Source: Deltaproteobacteria bacterium (GTDB lineage Bacteria; Myxococcota_A; Polyangia; Polyangiales; Polyangiaceae). Taken from it: a stretch of DNA of 64,000 nt. Below the pieces are notes generated by a model. The model was not told where the DNA came from and did not search any database. It was given only the letters and a program-made list of their open reading frames with translations. The position numbers were made by a program, and so were the translations under genes. Of the stretch, positions 1 to 9,320 are shown piece by piece (the first letter of the stretch is position 1; each line of letters opens with the position of its first letter). Where the stretch lies: positions 1 through 64,000 of the forward strand of contig VGRJ01000006.1 in assembly GCA_016875405.1 (NCBI GenBank), written 5' to 3'.

Positions 1-171
1 GAGGGAGGCCCGGGAAGGCGGCGCCGGAGGAGGATCCGGGAGTCAGGAGACCTGCCGTCGCGGCCGACACCGAGCCTTCGGAGGGAAGGCGCGTGACGCG
101 CAAGGTGCGTGTCTCCGCCTCTCCGCTCCGAGGTTCACCCTCCGGCGCGGGCGGCGCCGACGGATGCGAAC

Positions 172-1422
172 ATGACGAAATCGAAGCAACTCTCCAGCAC
201 CCTCTCTTTCGCTCTCTTGCTCGTCCCGAGCCTCACCATAATGGCCTGCGGCGACGATGGCGCAGACCCCTCGACGGCCGCATCGACGTCGGTCGCGAGC
301 GGCCAAGGCGGCGCGGGCGGGGCGATGAGCGGACGGGGCGGCGCGGGCGGCGCGGGCGGCGCGGGCGGCGCGGGCGGCGGCTCGACGGTCGAGTGCCTCG
401 ACGCCTCGAGCTACGCGGACGCCTTCGAGCTGCTGGCACCTGAGCTGTGCGTCGTGGCGCGCCACACGGCCCCCTTCGTTGTGGGCTTCGATGAGAACTT
501 CAAGGAGATCGCGCCGACCTGGGGCCGTCATGGCGGCCCTCTCACGCTCGCGCAGGAGGGGAACGCCTTCACGCTCACGCGCTGGAAGGTGCCGACGGGC
601 GCCGATGGCGCGCTCACCGTCGACACGATGCAAGGCCCCGTCGACACGGCGATCCCCTCGAACCTCGCACCGAGCGCGCTGTTCCTCAACGCCGCGGCGG
701 TGGATCTTCCGTTCGGCGGCTGGACCGCGATCGGCTGGGCCGAGTTCGGCAGCTCGAAGGGTGAGCTCCTCATGGTCGGCAAGGACGGCGTCGACAAGCG
801 CTTCGGTGTGACGTCGGTCTATGCCGTGGCCGGGCTCGCCGCGGCGAACAAGAGCCGCGTGCTCACGGCGAGCTCGTCGCCGCTCGGCGCGACCGGTACA
901 GACATCGGGCTCCATGCGACCGACCTCTGCGGCGCGGCGCTGTGCACCGGAGGCGCGGTCGCGGTGACCAAGGCAGGCGACGCGAGCGGCCCGGTCGCCA
1001 CGGACGCGACCGGCAACGCGTTCGCGGTGTTTCCGAACATCAGCAAGAACACCCAGCAAATCGTCGGCTACGCCGCGAGCGCCATCGCTCCTGGCGTCGC
1101 GCCCTCGGGCGGCGCGACGCTGGCGACGCTGGCGGGCTCGGGCACCGCGCTCGCGGCCCTCGCGCCGGACTCGGGCGGCGAAGGTCTTCTGTTCTTCCAG
1201 CCGGCGGTGATGTTCGTCCCCGGAGACGTGGTGGTGCAGCGCTTCACGGCGGTCGACTCGAAGACGCTCGCGGCGAAGGGCGCGACCGCGAAGGCGCTCG
1301 TACCGAAGGTCATGGGCACCGACGTGCGGCTCATGACGGATGGCGACGGCCGCCTGTGGGCGGCACTGCGAGTCGACGCGACCAAGCTCGAGAGCGTGTT
1401 CTTCGCGCTCGCACGCCGATAG
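172..1422 (+). CDS. Lipoprotein of unknown function with Gly-rich linker
   Basis: A predicted outer-membrane or periplasmic lipoprotein of 416 residues. The start at the ATG after an unlikely upstream extension gives a basic N-terminus, a hydrophobic stretch and a lipobox (TIMAC) with the lipidated Cys at residue 26. Mature residues about 40-72 are a low-complexity Gly/Ala linker encoded by repeated 9-base units, a common tether in myxobacterial lipoproteins. The remainder has no motif I recognise; its alternating hydrophobic pattern is compatible with a beta-propeller or other beta-rich fold, but that is a guess. It leads a run of three same-strand lipoprotein genes. Coding status is supported by strong third-position GC bias; function is unknown. 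Confidence 0.8.
   Translation: MTKSKQLSSTLSFALLLVPSLTIMACGDDGADPSTAASTSVASGQGGAGGAMSGRGGAGGAGGAGGAGGGSTVECLDASSYADAFELLAPELCVVARHTAPFVVGFDENFKEIAPTWGRHGGPLTLAQEGNAFTLTRWKVPTGADGALTVDTMQGPVDTAIPSNLAPSALFLNAAAVDLPFGGWTAIGWAEFGSSKGELLMVGKDGVDKRFGVTSVYAVAGLAAANKSRVLTASSSPLGATGTDIGLHATDLCGAALCTGGAVAVTKAGDASGPVATDATGNAFAVFPNISKNTQQIVGYAASAIAPGVAPSGGATLATLAGSGTALAALAPDSGGEGLLFFQPAVMFVPGDVVVQRFTAVDSKTLAAKGATAKALVPKVMGTDVRLMTDGDGRLWAALRVDATKLESVFFALARR
337..381 (+). repeat. Short tandem 9-base repeat encoding (Gly-Gly-Ala)n
   Basis: About five copies of a gcgggcggc-type unit in tandem, in frame inside the lipoprotein gene. It encodes the flexible Gly-Gly-Ala tether just after the lipid anchor. Because the unit length is a multiple of three, copy-number change would alter tether length and not the reading frame. 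Confidence 0.7.
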
Positions 1423-1492
1423 TCGATGAGCCTGGGTGGCGCGCCGAAGCTGGCGAGCGACGCGGCGGCGCGCTATCCTGCTTAAATCCTTC

Positions 1493-3034
1493 ATGCGATT
1501 TGCTTACGCTCTGGGGCTGGCCGCCTCGCTCATGGCCACCCTCGTCGTCGGATGTGACGAGCGCTCTCGCGAGCCACGACCGACCGAGAAGCCGCCGACG
1601 CCCGTAGTCTCGGCCTCGATTACGTTCGTCCAGGACGGCCCCCTCACGCTCGCTCCGGGCGAGTCTGCCTCGCTCATGGTCGAGACCACTCCGCCCAACG
1701 AATACCCGATTCAGTTTCGCCTCGTCGGGGACTCGCTGGACGCCTCACTCGACACCGCGAAGACCATCACCGGAGCCGACGGGCGCGCAACGCTCGAGCT
1801 GCGCGCGCCGAAACAGGCCACCACGTTCGCGGTGCGCGCGACCATCGAAGGCGGACCAAGCCGAGACCTCGTCGTCTCGGTGAGCGGCCAGGGGTTCGTC
1901 ACGCTCGAAGTGATTCCATCGTACCTCGGCAATCGCGCCATCGAGTCTTGGACCGCCCTGGCGGTGACCGGCACGACGTGCGCCGCGCTCGCGCCCAAGG
2001 CTCCGGCGGATCCCGACGGCGCGCTCTCCGCCACGGCGGCGGTCGGCGCGACGCTGCTCGTGTCCGAGGTCCCGGTCGGTCCCGCGCTCGCGGTCGTGGT
2101 GCGCTCGGAGAAGCACGTCTGGGGCTGCGCCGACGCCGCTGGGCTTGGACCTGGGAGCATCGGCAAGGTCGAGGTCCCGGTGACGAATCGGCCGCTCGAC
2201 ACGACCGACAGCTCCGTGGACGTGACGCTCGAGATCGTGCCCGAGAAGCTCGGATGGCTGGCGACGCTCGACGCGACGCGGGCGGCCATGCTCGCGTCGT
2301 TCACCGTGAACGGCACCGAAGCGGAGACGCTGCGAGCCGCGATGTTCGCTGCGGCGGCGAACGCGAAGGAGCTCGACGAGAGCGCGTGGCTCGCGGCGCT
2401 CGCGGCGCGACTTGGAGACCCCGGGGCCCGCCCCACCGCGGCGCTCGCAGCGCTCGCGACCACACTCCCGGACGAGGCCCCGACGCTCCGCGGTCGGACG
2501 AGCGGCCTCGACGCCTCGCACGCGGTCTTCACGCTGGCGACGTTCGGCACGCTCGACGTCTCCTCCGCTGGTGGCCCGACCGAGCACCTCATATCGCTCA
2601 CCGTCGACCCGAACGATCAGGTTCATCTCGGCGGCGCGCTGTTCCTGATGCCGTCGCGCTACCTCGGCGCACGCCTCGAGGCCGCCGTGGCGGTCGATCC
2701 TGGGACTCCGACGCTCCCCGCGTGGCTCGCGAAGAAGCTCGGCTGCACGACGCTCGAGGTGCCCGTCACCGAAGCGTGCAACTCGAGCTGCGTCCGGTCT
2801 GCCTGCGAGCAAGGGATCGCGAACCTCTGGGAACACGCGCTCGACACTTCGGTGACCCTCGGCCTGCACGCGGAGGTCGCGTTGACCGTGACGGGCGCCG
2901 CGACAATGGACGACGAGATGCGCCTCTCGGGGTTCGACGGCAGCTGGCTCGGCGTGATGAAGAGCGGCGACGTCGTCACGAAGATGTCGGGCTCGGCCGT
3001 CGGTGTTCCGGCGAACGACGCCCCCGCGAACTGA
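1493..3034 (+). CDS. Lipoprotein with N-terminal Ig-like domain, unknown function
   Basis: Predicted lipoprotein of 513 residues. The ATG chosen starts a compact signal peptide with lipobox LVVGC, Cys at residue 21; the upstream in-frame extension is Arg-rich and unlikely. Residues about 40-135 alternate beta strands and end in a Gly-Gln turn, resembling bacterial Ig-like (Big/invasin) modules. The region from about 255 to 330 is Ala-rich and probably helical. A Cys-rich patch near residue 420-440 (CNSSCVRSAC) could form disulfides in the periplasm. It lies 70 bases after the preceding lipoprotein gene on the same strand. I do not recognise a family. Confidence 0.8.
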   Translation: MRFAYALGLAASLMATLVVGCDERSREPRPTEKPPTPVVSASITFVQDGPLTLAPGESASLMVETTPPNEYPIQFRLVGDSLDASLDTAKTITGADGRATLELRAPKQATTFAVRATIEGGPSRDLVVSVSGQGFVTLEVIPSYLGNRAIESWTALAVTGTTCAALAPKAPADPDGALSATAAVGATLLVSEVPVGPALAVVVRSEKHVWGCADAAGLGPGSIGKVEVPVTNRPLDTTDSSVDVTLEIVPEKLGWLATLDATRAAMLASFTVNGTEAETLRAAMFAAAANAKELDESAWLAALAARLGDPGARPTAALAALATTLPDEAPTLRGRTSGLDASHAVFTLATFGTLDVSSAGGPTEHLISLTVDPNDQVHLGGALFLMPSRYLGARLEAAVAVDPGTPTLPAWLAKKLGCTTLEVPVTEACNSSCVRSACEQGIANLWEHALDTSVTLGLHAEVALTVTGAATMDDEMRLSGFDGSWLGVMKSGDVVTKMSGSAVGVPANDAPAN

Positions 3035-3101: not shown

Positions 3102-6083
3102 ATGCATCGATGGTTCCCTCTCGCTTCCGCGCTCGTCGTCCCTCTCCTCGCGGGCGTTGCGTGTGAGCCCGCCGAACCCGAGCTTCCACCTGGGACCCCC
3201 GAACCCACCATCCCCACCGGCGAGTTGTGCCTCGAGCCCGCGCCGATCTTCGTGTCCACGCGCTTCGAGCCCGACTTCGTCGTCCTTGCACCAGGTCAGA
3301 AGCGGAAGGTTCGCGTCGCGGTCGACCCGGATTTCTGCGCGCCGGTCCCGCTGACGTTCACCTCGAGCGACCCCGCTGTCGCAGCCGCGCCGAAGATGCG
3401 CACCATCACCTACGGTCAGCCGACGCTCGATCTCGAGGTCACGGGCGCGACGCTCGGCGAGGCGACGCTCACGGTCTCGATCCCCAAGGGCGACGGGACC
3501 GACGCGACCGGCACGCTCGCGGTCGAGGTGCGCGCCGCCACGGCGCTCGCCTGCGCCGCGGAAGACGACGGCGCACCGACCCTGCTCGAGGCCGGAAAGA
3601 CCTCCGCGACGCCGGGCAGCGTCGCCGGCAAAGGCGCGCTCGCCAACGCCGCGATCTTCATGTCGAAGGGCGCCGACGCGCCGAACTACGGGAGCTTCCT
3701 GTGGAGCGTCGCGCCGTTCGAAGCATCGGTCGCCTGCGCGAAGGATCTCACGCCGTCGGGTTACGTAGCGCTCGGCCCGGCGGTCACCTTCGGCCCAACC
3801 GAGAAGGTCTTTCCTAGAGACATGGCGATGGAGGTCCCAGTGAACCCAGCGCGCATGCCGGACGCGGCACGCTGGCGCCACGTCGAGGTCGTCTACAGCG
3901 GGCCAAAATTCAAGGCGCCGCGCGTCGTCGCCGTCACCAACCCGCGTCCGTACCGCAAGGCCGATGGGAGCTGGACGTTGCGCTTCGAAGCGCCGCGACT
4001 CGGCACCTACCAGGTCGTCGTGAAGGCCGTCGCCGGCACCGAGAAGCGGCAGCGCCGGCTCACGCATCGCGCGGTAATCGGCGTCTCGATGGGCGGCGCA
4101 GGGACCGCGCAGTTCGGGCTGCGCCACCATGACCTGTTCGACGTGATAGCTCCGCTCGGAGGTCCCGTCGACTGGACCTGGCTCGCGAATCACCTCGAAG
4201 AGAATCACACCGCCGGATTCCGACCGATCGCGCCGGGGACCAAGCTCGAGGACATCGCGCTCGAGTCCAAGAGCTGCACCACGAGCGCGGACTGCGCGCC
4301 CGACGAGACGTGCCTCGGGGTGCTCGCGAGCCCGCCGACGAACGGCAAGTGCCGCATCATGCCGACGAGCGACGAGCCCTACGAGCACCCGTCGTCGTTC
4401 AACGCATGGTGGGCCGAGTTTCCCCGAACGGGCAACGGCGGCAACTTCGATCGCGAGGAGTACATCCAGATCTTCCGCGATCTGTCGCTCATGTTCGGCA
4501 ATCCGAACGGTTACAACCCCGAGCAGCTGAACCTGCCGGCCGGCGTCGACCCGAAGCACCCGAGCGTGGTCGGCGACCACGAGGGCGACGCCTGCAGCGT
4601 CTACGTCGATCCGCTCGAGGGCGACCCCAACGAGGCGAAGCAGAAGGAGCGCTGGAGCAAGTGCCCGAAGGAGCGCTGCAAGTACACCCAGACGCTCTCC
4701 AACTACTACGACGACGAGTTCAACCCGGACGGGACGTTCCCGGTCATCACCTTCTGCGACGGTAGCGACCAGCAAGAGGCGCTCTCGCCCTGGGCCAACA
4801 CCTGGGTGGACTCGGGCAACGACTCGCCGATGGAGGTCGCGCTGGCGGTCGACTATAACGGCAACGGGAAGCGCGACGAGCTCGAGCCGATCATTCGAGC
4901 AGGGCATGAGCCATGGGACGACTGGGGCACGGACGGGACCCCGAGCGCGATGGAGCCGGGGTACGGCGCCGGCGACCTCGACCCCGCGGGAGATGACTAC
5001 GACCCGCAGTACAACCCGACCGGCACCGAGGGCGATCACCGCTTCCAGCCGGGCGAGCCCTACCGCGACCACGGCCTCGACGGCGTCGCCGACACCGCCT
5101 CGAGCCCCTACGACGACGGCGAGGGAGACGGGAAGTTCACGGTCGCGCCAGGCCTGCAGCGCATTTGGGACTACGACCCGCACACGATCGCGCGCGGGTG
5201 GCCGAGCTCGGCCCCGAAGGTGCTCGACGACGAGGCGATCCGCCGCTTTGACCTGTGGACCGACGGCGGCATGCGCGACCTGTTCAACTTCGCGGTCGCG
5301 GCGCGCCATCTCGCCGGCACCTTCCTCGCGCGCGGTCGCACCACCGCGTTCTACAGCGACTTCAACGTCCCGCTCGGCCTGGATCCGGCAAACCCCAACG
5401 GCTACAACCCCGGCCGCGTGTTCTACGAGGACCTGCCCGGTGTGGTCTTCATGCGCTACGGCCATGACGAGCCGACGGCGCAACACATCGAGGACGGTTC
5501 GGGGCAGCACGTCGGGACCGCGATCGAGGTGACGGCACGGCTCCAGTCCGCGCTCTACTTCATCGGCTCGCGCTGGCCCGATGCCCCGAGCGCGCTCTCG
5601 CCGACGACCGCCGACGACCCTGCGGAGGGCATTGACAACTGTCAAGTCGCTGGCAACTGCAACTTCTCGTTCACCGCCAGCGACGGACGCACCGGCCCGG
5701 TCGCGATCTCGCTTCCGCCCGGCTACGGCCACCAGGAGCTGCAGGGAGAGCGCTACCCGGTCATCTACATGCTGCACGGGTACGGCATGAAGCCCGACGA
5801 CCTTCAGGCGGCGATCGTCTTCCTGAAGAACTGGATGAACGGTGGCTCCGACTCGCAGCACAGGCGGCTGAAGAAGGCGATCCTCGTCTATGTCGACGGC
5901 CGCTGCCGTGCGCCCGAGGGTAACGACGGTGAGACGCACGCCGAGTGCATTCGCGGCAGCTTCTTCACCGACAGCATCCGACCCAACGGCCCGCAGATGG
6001 ACCGCTGGTGGCTCGAGCTGATGGACGAGATCGACAAGCGCTACCGCACGATGGGCGAGTCGGTCGTCGAGTGGACCGACTGA
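3102..6083 (+). CDS. Lipoprotein with Ig-like domain and circularly permuted esterase-like domain
   Basis: A 993-residue predicted lipoprotein (lipobox GVAC, Cys21). Residues about 40-140 look Ig-like. Residues 327-332 read GVSMGG, the nucleophile elbow of the esterase D/putative esterase alpha/beta-hydrolase family (Ser329), followed by the usual LFDVIAPLGG strand. The segment that normally lies before that elbow occurs at the very end of the protein: strand YPVIYML, oxyanion motif HGYG at 892-895, then a helix ending DEIDKRYRT. This order is a circular permutation. Between the halves lies a large insertion with an EF-hand-like loop at 584-595 (D-x-N-x-N-G-x-x-D-x-x-E), Asp-rich stretches and a possible catalytic His near residue 803. 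It is likely a surface or periplasmic esterase; substrate unknown. Confidence 0.8.
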   Translation: MHRWFPLASALVVPLLAGVACEPAEPELPPGTPEPTIPTGELCLEPAPIFVSTRFEPDFVVLAPGQKRKVRVAVDPDFCAPVPLTFTSSDPAVAAAPKMRTITYGQPTLDLEVTGATLGEATLTVSIPKGDGTDATGTLAVEVRAATALACAAEDDGAPTLLEAGKTSATPGSVAGKGALANAAIFMSKGADAPNYGSFLWSVAPFEASVACAKDLTPSGYVALGPAVTFGPTEKVFPRDMAMEVPVNPARMPDAARWRHVEVVYSGPKFKAPRVVAVTNPRPYRKADGSWTLRFEAPRLGTYQVVVKAVAGTEKRQRRLTHRAVIGVSMGGAGTAQFGLRHHDLFDVIAPLGGPVDWTWLANHLEENHTAGFRPIAPGTKLEDIALESKSCTTSADCAPDETCLGVLASPPTNGKCRIMPTSDEPYEHPSSFNAWWAEFPRTGNGGNFDREEYIQIFRDLSLMFGNPNGYNPEQLNLPAGVDPKHPSVVGDHEGDACSVYVDPLEGDPNEAKQKERWSKCPKERCKYTQTLSNYYDDEFNPDGTFPVITFCDGSDQQEALSPWANTWVDSGNDSPMEVALAVDYNGNGKRDELEPIIRAGHEPWDDWGTDGTPSAMEPGYGAGDLDPAGDDYDPQYNPTGTEGDHRFQPGEPYRDHGLDGVADTASSPYDDGEGDGKFTVAPGLQRIWDYDPHTIARGWPSSAPKVLDDEAIRRFDLWTDGGMRDLFNFAVAARHLAGTFLARGRTTAFYSDFNVPLGLDPANPNGYNPGRVFYEDLPGVVFMRYGHDEPTAQHIEDGSGQHVGTAIEVTARLQSALYFIGSRWPDAPSALSPTTADDPAEGIDNCQVAGNCNFSFTASDGRTGPVAISLPPGYGHQELQGERYPVIYMLHGYGMKPDDLQAAIVFLKNWMNGGSDSQHRRLKKAILVYVDGRCRAPEGNDGETHAECIRGSFFTDSIRPNGPQMDRWWLELMDEIDKRYRTMGESVVEWTD

Positions 6084-6110: not shown

Positions 6111-9100
6111 TCATGGGGAGCTGCAGTCGAGGACGTGCCTCGTCGATTTGCCGGGCTCGAGCGCGACGAGCGGCAAGGCACCAACGGGAGCAACCGTTCG
6201 CGGTGCGGGCGCGGTCGGCTTGTCGAGCGTGACGCCACGCGCGGCGCGTCCGACGAGGCCTTCGACGCAGCTGCCCGCGGGGTCGAGTCGGAGCAGGAGC
6301 TCGACACCATCGACGTGAGCCTTCGCGCCGACGACGTCGACCGCCGTGGCGGTGAACGCAGGGAGCTCGACGAGCCAGCCGTCATCGTCTGCGTCGCAGC
6401 GCCGCAGCCTGGTCCCGAGGGTGTCGAGGCTGATGCGCTCTGCCTTGCCGGGCGAGCCGGTCGCCGAGTCGAGCGGGAAGACCGCGACCTCGGCGGGGCG
6501 AGAAGGCCCGAGCTCGTCAGCCGGTAGCGAGACCAAGAGCCCGAGAGCGCTCTCGTCAAAGCGGCGGACGAGGCTGATGGGCGCGATGGACTGCTGCCGG
6601 CCGCCTCCAAGGCGTCGCAGCGCCGCGATCGGCGCGACCTCGTCGATGTCGGCGCGCCACAGCTCGACGACGTGTCGAGTCGCCTCCTCGACGAGAAAAT
6701 ACCAACGCCGACCGACGCGAACCGCGCCGCGCTCCATCGGTCGCCGCAGGGTGCGCGGGGCAGGCAGGATCGCAGGCGCCTCACCTTCGACCGCCGAGAA
6801 GAGCTCGCAGGGCGAGGCGTTGGCGCGGCACACGCTGACGAGCGCCGCACGGCCAGCAGGGTCGCGCACCGCGTACCACTGCATGAAGCCGCCGCTCGGG
6901 CGAGGACCGAAGAGCTCGAGCGCGCCATCGAGATCGGCCCAAGGGGAACGCCCGCGCGCGGTTGACCGGATCGAATCGGTCGGAGCGAACCGATCCTCGA
7001 AGCGGATCTGCCACCACCCCGACTTCGACCAGGACGTCGCCTTGGGGCCCCAGGCGTAGACGTGGGCGCGGCTCGAGGTCGATGAGAAGGTCGGCTTCCC
7101 GACGCCGATCTCTCCCTGCCCGAGCGCCGGTGGAGGCGCCTCGACGAAGTCGACCCATCCGCGCGCGGCGGGGTCGTCGTTGCCCCTCGACGCGACGGGC
7201 GGCGGGGCCTTCGCAGCGGCGCCCGATGCGGTCTTCGTCATCGGGCCACGCCCCGCGCGAGGCGTGGGCGCGGCTCCAGGCGACGCGGTGCGCGAAGGCG
7301 AATCGGGCCTCGCACGAGCAGGGGCAGGCGCTCCGAACACGGAAGGCCGCGCCGCGGGCGCGGAGGAGCTCGCGACCGGAGGCGATGCCTTCGATGCGGC
7401 GGGCGGACGAGGGGCTCCGGCCCGAGACGGGCGCACCGTGCAGCGGAGCGGGAGGCTCGGCGGCACCTCGAGCGGAGCGACGCGGCTCGGCGGCTCCGGC
7501 GCGTCCACGAAGCGCCGCTGCGGATCGGGGCTCCCCCAACCGACGCGCGTCCAGCCGGGCAAGACGCACCCGACCCCGGTGCAGCCCGACACGGTGGTGT
7601 TCGCCCCGGAGGGGAGCGCGGGCAGCGTGAACCGCGACCAGGTTCGGCCGCCGTCGAGCGACTCGTGCGCGGTGTCACCGACGAGGACGAGCGCACGCTC
7701 TTCGCTGAAGAGCCCGCGCGCAGGGGCGTCGACGAGCGCACCGAGCGCGACGCGACCATCGTGGCCGACGGTCACGCCGACGATGCGACCGCCAGCCTCG
7801 ACCCAACCGCCGAGGCCGCCCCCCTCGTTCTCCCACATGCCCTCGAGCCACAGCCCTTCGCGCGCGACGCGCGACGCGAGGGTTGGCTCGTCTGGCAAGG
7901 CCAGCGAGGCCGACTTGACGGATGTCATTGGAAGAACGTGCACGGAGCCGTCCGCCCCGGGACGCGGCGGCACCACGACCGCGGTGCGCCCGTCGCGGAG
8001 CCCGACGACGCGCTCGACCCCCACCTCGCCCTTGATCGTGATCTCTCGCTCGGGGCGGACTCCGTCGAGCACGCAGTAGCGCCGCACCGACGTCACCCCC
8101 GCGAGAGGCCCCTGCCCGTCGCTCGACCTCCGCGGGGCGAGCTCGACGACCTCGCGCGCGGGGCTCCTGTCCGCGCCGCACGCGCCCCGCACCACGAGCT
8201 GGCCGTTCCCGCTCGGCGCGACGAAGCGCGGCTCGTCGAAGCGTCGCACCTCGGAGAGGCGGAGCGGCGGCTCGTAACGGAGGACGCTCGTCGGCCCGCG
8301 CTCGCTCGTGCAGACGAACCCGAGCGAGTCCGCGAGACGAACCCCCTGACACGACGCGAGCTCGTCGGCGTACGCGTGCTCCGCGAGCGCGACCACCTTG
8401 CCCTCGGGCAACGCGATGCGGGCGAGCTTGCCGAGGCTCGCGACGAGCGCGCTGCTCGCGGAGTCGGTCACGCCGCGCGAGAGCGCGAGGCGCAGCGGTG
8501 CTTCTCCGAGCACGAGAGGCTTCGGGAGCTCGACCTCTTCGGTATCCGCGACGAGGTCCCCGCGCTCCTCGTTCGTGACGCGCACGGCGCGCCCCTCGGC
8601 ATCGAGACGCACGCGCCCGCCATCCGTCAAGAGCACGGCGTCGTCGTCCTCGACGAACACCGAGCGGAGCTCGTCCACCTCGGGAATTTCGTGCCACGTC
8701 GCGCCGCCGTCATAGGTCGCGAGAGGGCCGAGGAGGTCCGCGTCGGCGACGGCTCGCCAACCGTCGATGAAGCTCATCACTCCGAGCGATGTTGCGAGCG
8801 GCAACGGACCGTTCGGCGCGAGTCGCCCGTCCTCGGCCTCGAGCGCTAGCACCGAGTTGTAGCGTCCGCGCAGGTACAGCCGGTCGAACCCCGGCACGAC
8901 ATCGACGACCGTGCGTCCAAGCGTCGCGAGCGGCACGAGCGGGCCTGCCCACGAGCGCGCGCGCCACAGCATCGTGCCGCGAGGCCCCGACTGGTAGAAC
9001 ACGAAGCCACCGCCGAGCCGATCGGGGAGCTCGACGACCTCGACGGCGCCCGCCGGAAAGAGCTCGCGCCCGCGCTCGACGAGCCCGCCCTCATGGACGG

Positions 9101-9320
9101 ACACGCGAAGCCTCCCCACCAGGTAGAGCGCGGCCCCGGCGCGTCGGAATCGCGGCGCGATCGTCGACTCGTCGAGCAATGGGAAGAGCTCTCCCGACGC
9201 GAGCGACCTCGGCGCATCGAGGACCGCGGGCGCGGGAGCGACGGCAGGAGGCAAGGTGGGCGCGGTGCTCGGGGCGCAGCCGCTCGCGAGGAGCGCGAGG
9301 ACCAGAGACGAGCGACGCAT
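6111..9320 (-). CDS. Large lipoprotein with Asp-box (BNR-like) motifs
   Basis: Predicted lipoprotein of 1069 residues with a very short signal peptide and lipobox LASGC (Cys15). Two Asp-box-like motifs are visible (DGGATW and SLDGGRTWSRF), typical of beta-propellers of the sialidase, BNR or Vps10 type. A long Pro/Ala/Ser-rich linker around residues 640-720 divides the protein into two halves. The second half again has repeated Trp-containing beta-strand patterns. A catalytic site is not evident, so a binding or structural propeller on the cell surface is more likely than an enzyme. It is convergent with the permuted esterase gene and divergent from asd. Start ATG is unambiguous. Confidence 0.75.
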   Translation of the reverse strand: MRRSSLVLALLASGCAPSTAPTLPPAVAPAPAVLDAPRSLASGELFPLLDESTIAPRFRRAGAALYLVGRLRVSVHEGGLVERGRELFPAGAVEVVELPDRLGGGFVFYQSGPRGTMLWRARSWAGPLVPLATLGRTVVDVVPGFDRLYLRGRYNSVLALEAEDGRLAPNGPLPLATSLGVMSFIDGWRAVADADLLGPLATYDGGATWHEIPEVDELRSVFVEDDDAVLLTDGGRVRLDAEGRAVRVTNEERGDLVADTEEVELPKPLVLGEAPLRLALSRGVTDSASSALVASLGKLARIALPEGKVVALAEHAYADELASCQGVRLADSLGFVCTSERGPTSVLRYEPPLRLSEVRRFDEPRFVAPSGNGQLVVRGACGADRSPAREVVELAPRRSSDGQGPLAGVTSVRRYCVLDGVRPEREITIKGEVGVERVVGLRDGRTAVVVPPRPGADGSVHVLPMTSVKSASLALPDEPTLASRVAREGLWLEGMWENEGGGLGGWVEAGGRIVGVTVGHDGRVALGALVDAPARGLFSEERALVLVGDTAHESLDGGRTWSRFTLPALPSGANTTVSGCTGVGCVLPGWTRVGWGSPDPQRRFVDAPEPPSRVAPLEVPPSLPLRCTVRPSRAGAPRPPAASKASPPVASSSAPAARPSVFGAPAPARARPDSPSRTASPGAAPTPRAGRGPMTKTASGAAAKAPPPVASRGNDDPAARGWVDFVEAPPPALGQGEIGVGKPTFSSTSSRAHVYAWGPKATSWSKSGWWQIRFEDRFAPTDSIRSTARGRSPWADLDGALELFGPRPSGGFMQWYAVRDPAGRAALVSVCRANASPCELFSAVEGEAPAILPAPRTLRRPMERGAVRVGRRWYFLVEEATRHVVELWRADIDEVAPIAALRRLGGGRQQSIAPISLVRRFDESALGLLVSLPADELGPSRPAEVAVFPLDSATGSPGKAERISLDTLGTRLRRCDADDDGWLVELPAFTATAVDVVGAKAHVDGVELLLRLDPAGSCVEGLVGRAARGVTLDKPTAPAPRTVAPVGALPLVALEPGKSTRHVLDCSSP

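Follow-up and report, generated by a model that had tools for sequence, protein, structure and literature searches.

Circularly permuted order of an esterase domain in a predicted lipoprotein family of Myxococcota

The open reading frame at 3102-6083 (+) of the window (the whole stretch of 64,000 nucleotides that was analysed) encodes a 993-aa protein, from a gene present as a single copy in its own genome, and the order of its esterase motifs raises the question of whether it holds one circularly permuted alpha/beta-hydrolase or pieces of separate domains. The initial annotation had favored permutation, placing the elbow GVSMGG (Ser329) about 560 residues ahead of the oxyanion motif HGYG and ending the chain in a helix, DEIDKRYRT. 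Both details hold: GVSMGG lies at 327-332 and HGYG at 892-895, 563 residues further on, and DEIDKRYRT lies at 975-983, with the stop ten residues after it.

Protein layout and conserved residues

The product is a predicted lipoprotein. Its putative lipidation residue, Cys21, is unchanged across a 28-row alignment, and relatives carry standard lipoboxes (e.g., LAGC). The features of the gene and its upstream neighbor are as follows.

1436 to 3034, + strand: upstream neighbor, encoding a 532-aa predicted lipoprotein, 67 bp from the esterase gene
3102 to 3164, + strand: signal peptide and lipobox with putative lipidation Cys21, residues 1-21 (predicted from sequence alone)
3249 to 3539, + strand: bacterial Ig-like (Big_2-like) domain, residues 50-146 (structure match, Z of ~10, to Big_2 domains 7r3t/7quz)
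3564 to 4040, + strand: ZU5-like beta-sandwich domain, residues 155-313 (VIA-align to ankyrin ZU5, 3ud1/3ud2)
4044 to 4208, + strand: canonical second half, first piece, with beta-5, elbow GVSMGG, alpha-C, and beta-6, residues 315-369 (hhalign; model DSSP)
4086 to 4088, + strand: nucleophile Ser329 (invariant in 78 sequences)
4209 to 5234, + strand: Asp/Gly-rich cap or insertion between beta-6 and beta-7, residues ~370-711 (model DSSP; conserved residues)
4851 to 4886, + strand: EF-hand-like loop DYNGNGKRDELE, residues 584-595 (conservation in 78 sequences)
5241 to 5576, + strand: canonical second half, second piece, with beta-7, Asp726, alpha-E, beta-8, His803, and alpha-F, residues 714-825 (rotated alignment; conservation)
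5277 to 5279, + strand: predicted catalytic Asp726 (conservation; rotated alignment)
5508 to 5510, + strand: predicted catalytic His803, in GQHVG (invariance; role assigned by position)
5652 to 6080, + strand: canonical first half at the C terminus, with beta-1, beta-2, beta-3, HGYG, alpha-A, beta-4, and alpha-B, residues 851-993 (hhalign; 8z91_A chain 28-131)
5775 to 5786, + strand: oxyanion motif HGYG, residues 892-895 (invariant in 78 sequences)

The Ig-like family PF02368 was matched in 5 of 28 family members. Residues 155-313 align with ankyrin ZU5 (3ud1/3ud2) at a Z of 10.6 and an rmsd of 3.1 to 3.5 over ~130 residues. In this bacterial lipoprotein the Ig-like domain is followed by a ZU5-like one, a domain type familiar mainly from eukaryotes, where ankyrins and death-domain proteins carry it.

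Along the chain, the elbow with Ser329 is followed by Asp726, His803, HGYG, and the final helix. Homologs with the same order, a check proposed at the outset, were found: the elbow precedes HGYG in each of the 77 relatives with both motifs, with a spacing of ~500 to 600 residues and a chain end about ten residues past the last helix, and because the order is identical in all of them, it is not due to chance. In an alignment of 78 sequences from a single phylum (Myxococcota), which share 38 to 80% identity with the window's protein over the hydrolase, Ser329, Asp726 (within DGGxRD), His803 (within GxHVG), and H892-G-Y-G are invariant. The invariance of the triad residues argues for activity. 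A permuted hydrolase fold serving as a nonenzyme, such as a binding lipoprotein, would fit the long cap and the adhesion-like N-terminal domains; given an invariant triad and oxyanion motif at such divergence, we regard it as quite unlikely.

The large insertion with an EF-hand-like loop had been thought to separate the two halves. The loop stands, with the conserved pattern D584-x-N-x-N-G-x-R-D592-x-x-E595, in which D584 and R591 are invariant and G589, D592, and E595 are conserved in at least 90% of the 78 sequences. Its position has to be revised: the insertion belongs to the first half, where it separates beta-6 from beta-7, and is followed by Asp726 and His803, which had gone unnoticed. 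The cap contains many invariant Asp, Gly, and Glu residues, with Asp/Gly runs at 607-611, 656-661, and 671-674, and together with the EF-hand-like loop these runs make calcium binding a reasonable expectation.

Relation to PF00756 and the predicted fold

The 993-aa protein matches PF00756 (E of 2.6e-6, 27.9 bits versus a cut-off of 22) in two stretches that lie ~530 residues apart in reversed order, the opening profile positions, 6-34, matching near the C terminus at 863-899. A test for a single domain in the profile's own order failed, and the match is continuous only once the protein is rotated. It then spans profile positions 6-151 in one piece, as it likewise does in two relatives, L081 and L134; the gain in bits from rotation is small, and what changes is that the match becomes continuous. 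In L134, the C-terminal piece covers profile positions 2-114 and the whole rotated match covers 2-149. All 28 of the 28 family members examined match PF00756 at an E of 0.1 or better, and its hallmarks, judged by conservation, are present (Ser-Asp-His residues, GxSxG, and HGxG). The esterase is related to PF00756 by descent, not by topology.

Comparisons with individual canonical esterases locate the cut. In a phmmer search of the PDB, query residues 831-900 correspond to chain residues 14-77 of the feruloyl esterase 1jjf, and query residues 321-354 correspond to chain residues 145-178. The best PDB match of the family profile, 8z91_A (E of 7e-14), pairs profile positions 532-648 with chain residues 28-131 and positions 8-39 with residues 132-163; the pieces of 7xrt are likewise joined, at 144/145. 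Canonical esterases match the family HMM in rotated order, with 0 to 3 residues between the pieces: 826-942 equals residues 39-145 and 300-341 equals 146-187 in L191, and 824-941 equals residues 58-166 and 302-328 equals 170-196 in L190. Since these enzymes thus join the family's C terminus almost directly to the elbow, the cut falls in the loop between canonical alpha-B and beta-5, in keeping with the earlier proposal of a break point between secondary-structure elements.

Against canonical Polyangiales esterases, hhalign in native order gave three separate matches in rotated order, among them residues 320-361 with canonical 179-220 (E of 2.5e-9) and residues 855-987 with canonical 49-179 (E of 1.3e-10). 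The rotated profile minus the cap gave a single alignment with a score of 169.5 (E of 4e-23), versus 94.4 and 87.9 for the native-order pieces. This alignment places Asp726, in DGGxRD, opposite the catalytic Asp of the canonical enzymes (GxxD) and ends ahead of His803, which was assigned by its invariance and position.

AlphaFold2 with the 78-row alignment modeled the whole protein at a pLDDT of 92.9 and a pTM of 0.92. When the model of all 993 residues was used for a fold search, every match was to an Ig-like or ZU5-like fold, and the hydrolase part was therefore modeled and searched separately. Residues 314-993 form one confident unit (pLDDT of 94.5, pTM of 0.94), with the following elements from model DSSP, whose names are our assignment.

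Start: beta-5 323-328, alpha-C 330-341, beta-6 348-352, cap ~370-711
Middle: beta-7 717-723, alpha-E 730-743, strands 748-751 and 781-786, alpha-F 807-823
End: beta-1 852-858, beta-2 864-870, beta-3 887-891, HGYG, alpha-A 905-913, beta-4 927-931, alpha-B 966-980

Only ~30 residues lead from the last canonical helix (807-823) to the canonical first strand (852-858). By VIA-align the hydrolase model matches 2d81 at a Z of 12.3 (244 of 318 residues, rmsd of 3.6) and 2d80 at a Z of 11.5 (242 residues), with model residues 7..669 equal to chain residues 30..338 in sequence order. Next in the fold search, from a Z of 7.8 downward, come canonical hydrolases, each covering one half: 6rzn aligns with the C-terminal part (495..673 equals 115..262) and 8z91 with the N-terminal part (5..517 equals 160..366). 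If the alignment runs without gaps from its first pair, Ser329 is matched to residue 39 of 2d80, the serine replaced in 2d81 (S39A).

The ~530 residues between the two PF00756 stretches could suggest two separate domains, such as two degenerate hydrolases or an incomplete domain to which a partner chain adds the rest, and hence a fusion, not a permutation. We consider this very improbable, as the halves supply complementary parts of one PF00756 profile and the modeled residues 314-993 make up one unit whose two ends map to the same 2d81 chain. Neither outcome named beforehand as contradicting permutation was encountered: there is one split PF00756 match in place of a complete esterase in each half, and the model does not divide the segments into two domains. 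The rotated profile match, the hhalign comparison, and the match of the model to 2d81 all bear out a circularly permuted esterase.

Comparison with type 2 depolymerases and other hydrolases

Type 2 dPHAscl depolymerases, the Penicillium funiculosum enzyme among them, carry the oxyanion hole C-terminal to the triad (PMC2666664). The same holds for the triad residues and oxyanion hole of the 993-aa protein, and its model shows the 2d80-like three-dimensional topology. In the original 2d80 paper, the P. funiculosum PHB depolymerase was reportedly described as a circularly permuted hydrolase. Permutation at the alpha-B/beta-5 loop is thus already known from type 2 PHA depolymerases, and the family could be a divergent branch of these enzymes, sharing one old permutation event. 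The order of Ser, Asp, His, and oxyanion motif is the same, the cut loop is the same, 2d81 is the top structural match, and absent sequence similarity would be compatible with a shared permutant of great age, one type 2 sequence having entered the profile test.

The sequence comparisons point the other way. Identity in the 2d81 match is 12%, the family profile did not retrieve 2d80 from the PDB even at an E of 10, and none of the 28 family members matched NF050059 (type 2, cut-off of 280 bits) at an E of 0.1. One true type 2 protein, L240 (G081 contig C483; 359 bits to NF050059, E of 7e-54 to 2d80), belongs with PF10503 and has HGC, in place of the PF00756 and HGYG of the family. Its profile comparison with the family gave an E of 0.27, from the weak profile of one type 2 sequence, versus 4e-23 for canonical PF00756 esterases. 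Type 2 enzymes (NF050059; 2d80/2d81) thus show no detectable sequence relation to the Myxococcota family, and they differ in their HGC oxyanion motif and in a 318-residue chain, related to PF10503, without the large cap. A common origin with them is, in our assessment, unlikely. Because the family is related in sequence to canonical PF00756 esterases and not to type 2 depolymerases, a separate origin is likely, with two permutations at the same loop. L240 was the sole type 2 PHA depolymerase above the cut-off in 377 Myxococcota genomes.

Canonical PF00756 esterases (CE1 feruloyl and acetyl xylan esterases, esterase D/FGH; 8z91, 1jjf, and 7xrt) belong to the same sequence family as the 993-aa protein and share with it the GxSMGG elbow, the HGxG oxyanion motif, a ...VDxxYRT helix before the elbow, and the Asp in GxxD. 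The 993-aa protein differs in an order rotated by one cut at alpha-B/beta-5, in an added ~340-residue Asp-rich cap at beta-6/beta-7, and in the added N-terminal Ig-like and ZU5-like domains. Natural changes of strand order also occur in alpha/beta-hydrolases with permuted peripheral strands (3fle, 2z8x, and 1lgy; PMC11878206), but there strands 1 and 2 alone are moved or reversed, whereas in the 993-aa protein the entire front half has shifted.

Distribution, proposed function, and origin

The permuted esterase family is conserved and spread over Myxococcota. The protein was found in 58 of 97 relatives (a few via weak matches alone), and 83 of 282 genomes had a match in a search across the phylum (a few just by a canonical esterase or the Asp-rich motif). 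A scan of GTDB species genomes, from which alone occurrence beyond Myxococcota was judged, gave 142 relatives; the titles among the 80 listed are Polyangiaceae, Polyangium, Labilithrix, Sandaracinaceae, Kofleriaceae, Myxococcales, and “Deltaproteobacteria.” Distant members L172 to L180 (697 to 827 aa, read stop to stop; L176 is incomplete, ending with the fetched stretch) lack the Ig-like and ZU5-like domains and consist of signal, linker, elbow, cap, Asp/His, HGxG or a variant, and final helix; the permuted unit therefore stands alone. No report of the family was found in the literature searched.

Several candidates were set aside. The weak matches L190, L191, and L234 to L239 proved to be canonical esterases, or multidomain proteins whose hydrolase has the canonical order. 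L231 to L233, considered as unpermuted relatives with the same cap, are LptD-like outer-membrane proteins of other Myxococcota, so named from their sequences only, that have just an Asp-rich motif in common with the family; no unpermuted protein bearing the same cap appeared among the Myxococcota genomes sampled. Their mid-protein motif, NPDPxxDD...GxEGNGxxDxGEPxxDRG, is close to profile positions 559-613, within the esterase cap, as though both drew on one calcium-binding-like module. In the distant relatives L181 to L184 and L187, Cys/Asp repeats (CNDGIDNDGDG...D...C) sit inside the C-terminal hydrolase half, near HGYG and ahead of the last helix.

Lipoprotein-like genes lie upstream of the esterase gene at 109-1422 (+) and 1436-3034 (+), and no Pfam family scored above the cut-off in either product. 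The latter gene is possibly on the same transcript as the esterase gene, and its homologue stands beside that gene in 17 of the 80 related loci listed. A gene at 6111-9320 (-) encodes a 1,069-aa protein with a weak BNR/Asp-box match; its homologue adjoins the esterase gene in 28 of the 80 listed loci, sometimes on its upstream side and sometimes downstream and on the opposite strand.

Taken together, we read the protein, with a probability of about 0.9, as a surface-anchored serine esterase that is a natural circular permutant of the alpha/beta-hydrolase fold, derived from PF00756 and separate from the permuted PHA depolymerases. It is most likely secreted and lipid anchored. From the N terminus, the lipid anchor would be followed by the Ig-like domain, the ZU5-like domain, and a hydrolase that would start at beta-5 with the nucleophile elbow, run through the cap between beta-6 and beta-7 to Asp726 and His803, and close with beta-1 to alpha-B, bringing HGYG last. 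As the hydrolase pieces are predicted to close into one sheet, the catalytic cycle is expected to be ordinary: Ser329, activated by Asp726/His803, would attack the ester, the backbone at HGYG and behind Ser329 would hold the oxyanion, and water would release the acyl-enzyme. The Asp-rich cap, probably stabilized by bound calcium, would shape the way in for the substrate. Among solved structures, those nearest in sequence are of feruloyl esterases and other enzymes of the CE1 type, and our tentative best guess for the substrate is a polymeric or carbohydrate-linked ester. The ancestor would have been a PF00756 (CE1/esterase D-like) esterase, and the simplest route would be duplication and fusion, after which the outer halves were lost.

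Among catalytic alpha/beta-hydrolases, naturally occurring circular permutants are, to our knowledge, rare. A split match gives permuted esterases only a weak PF00756 score, and annotation that relies on order undercounts them. That two lineages with no detectable sequence relation are cut at one and the same loop points to the alpha-B/beta-5 loop as a privileged site for new chain ends, an idea testable by engineering. The rearrangement has so far been known from a group of bioplastic-degrading enzymes, and the permuted Myxococcota esterases appear to be a second and separate instance.
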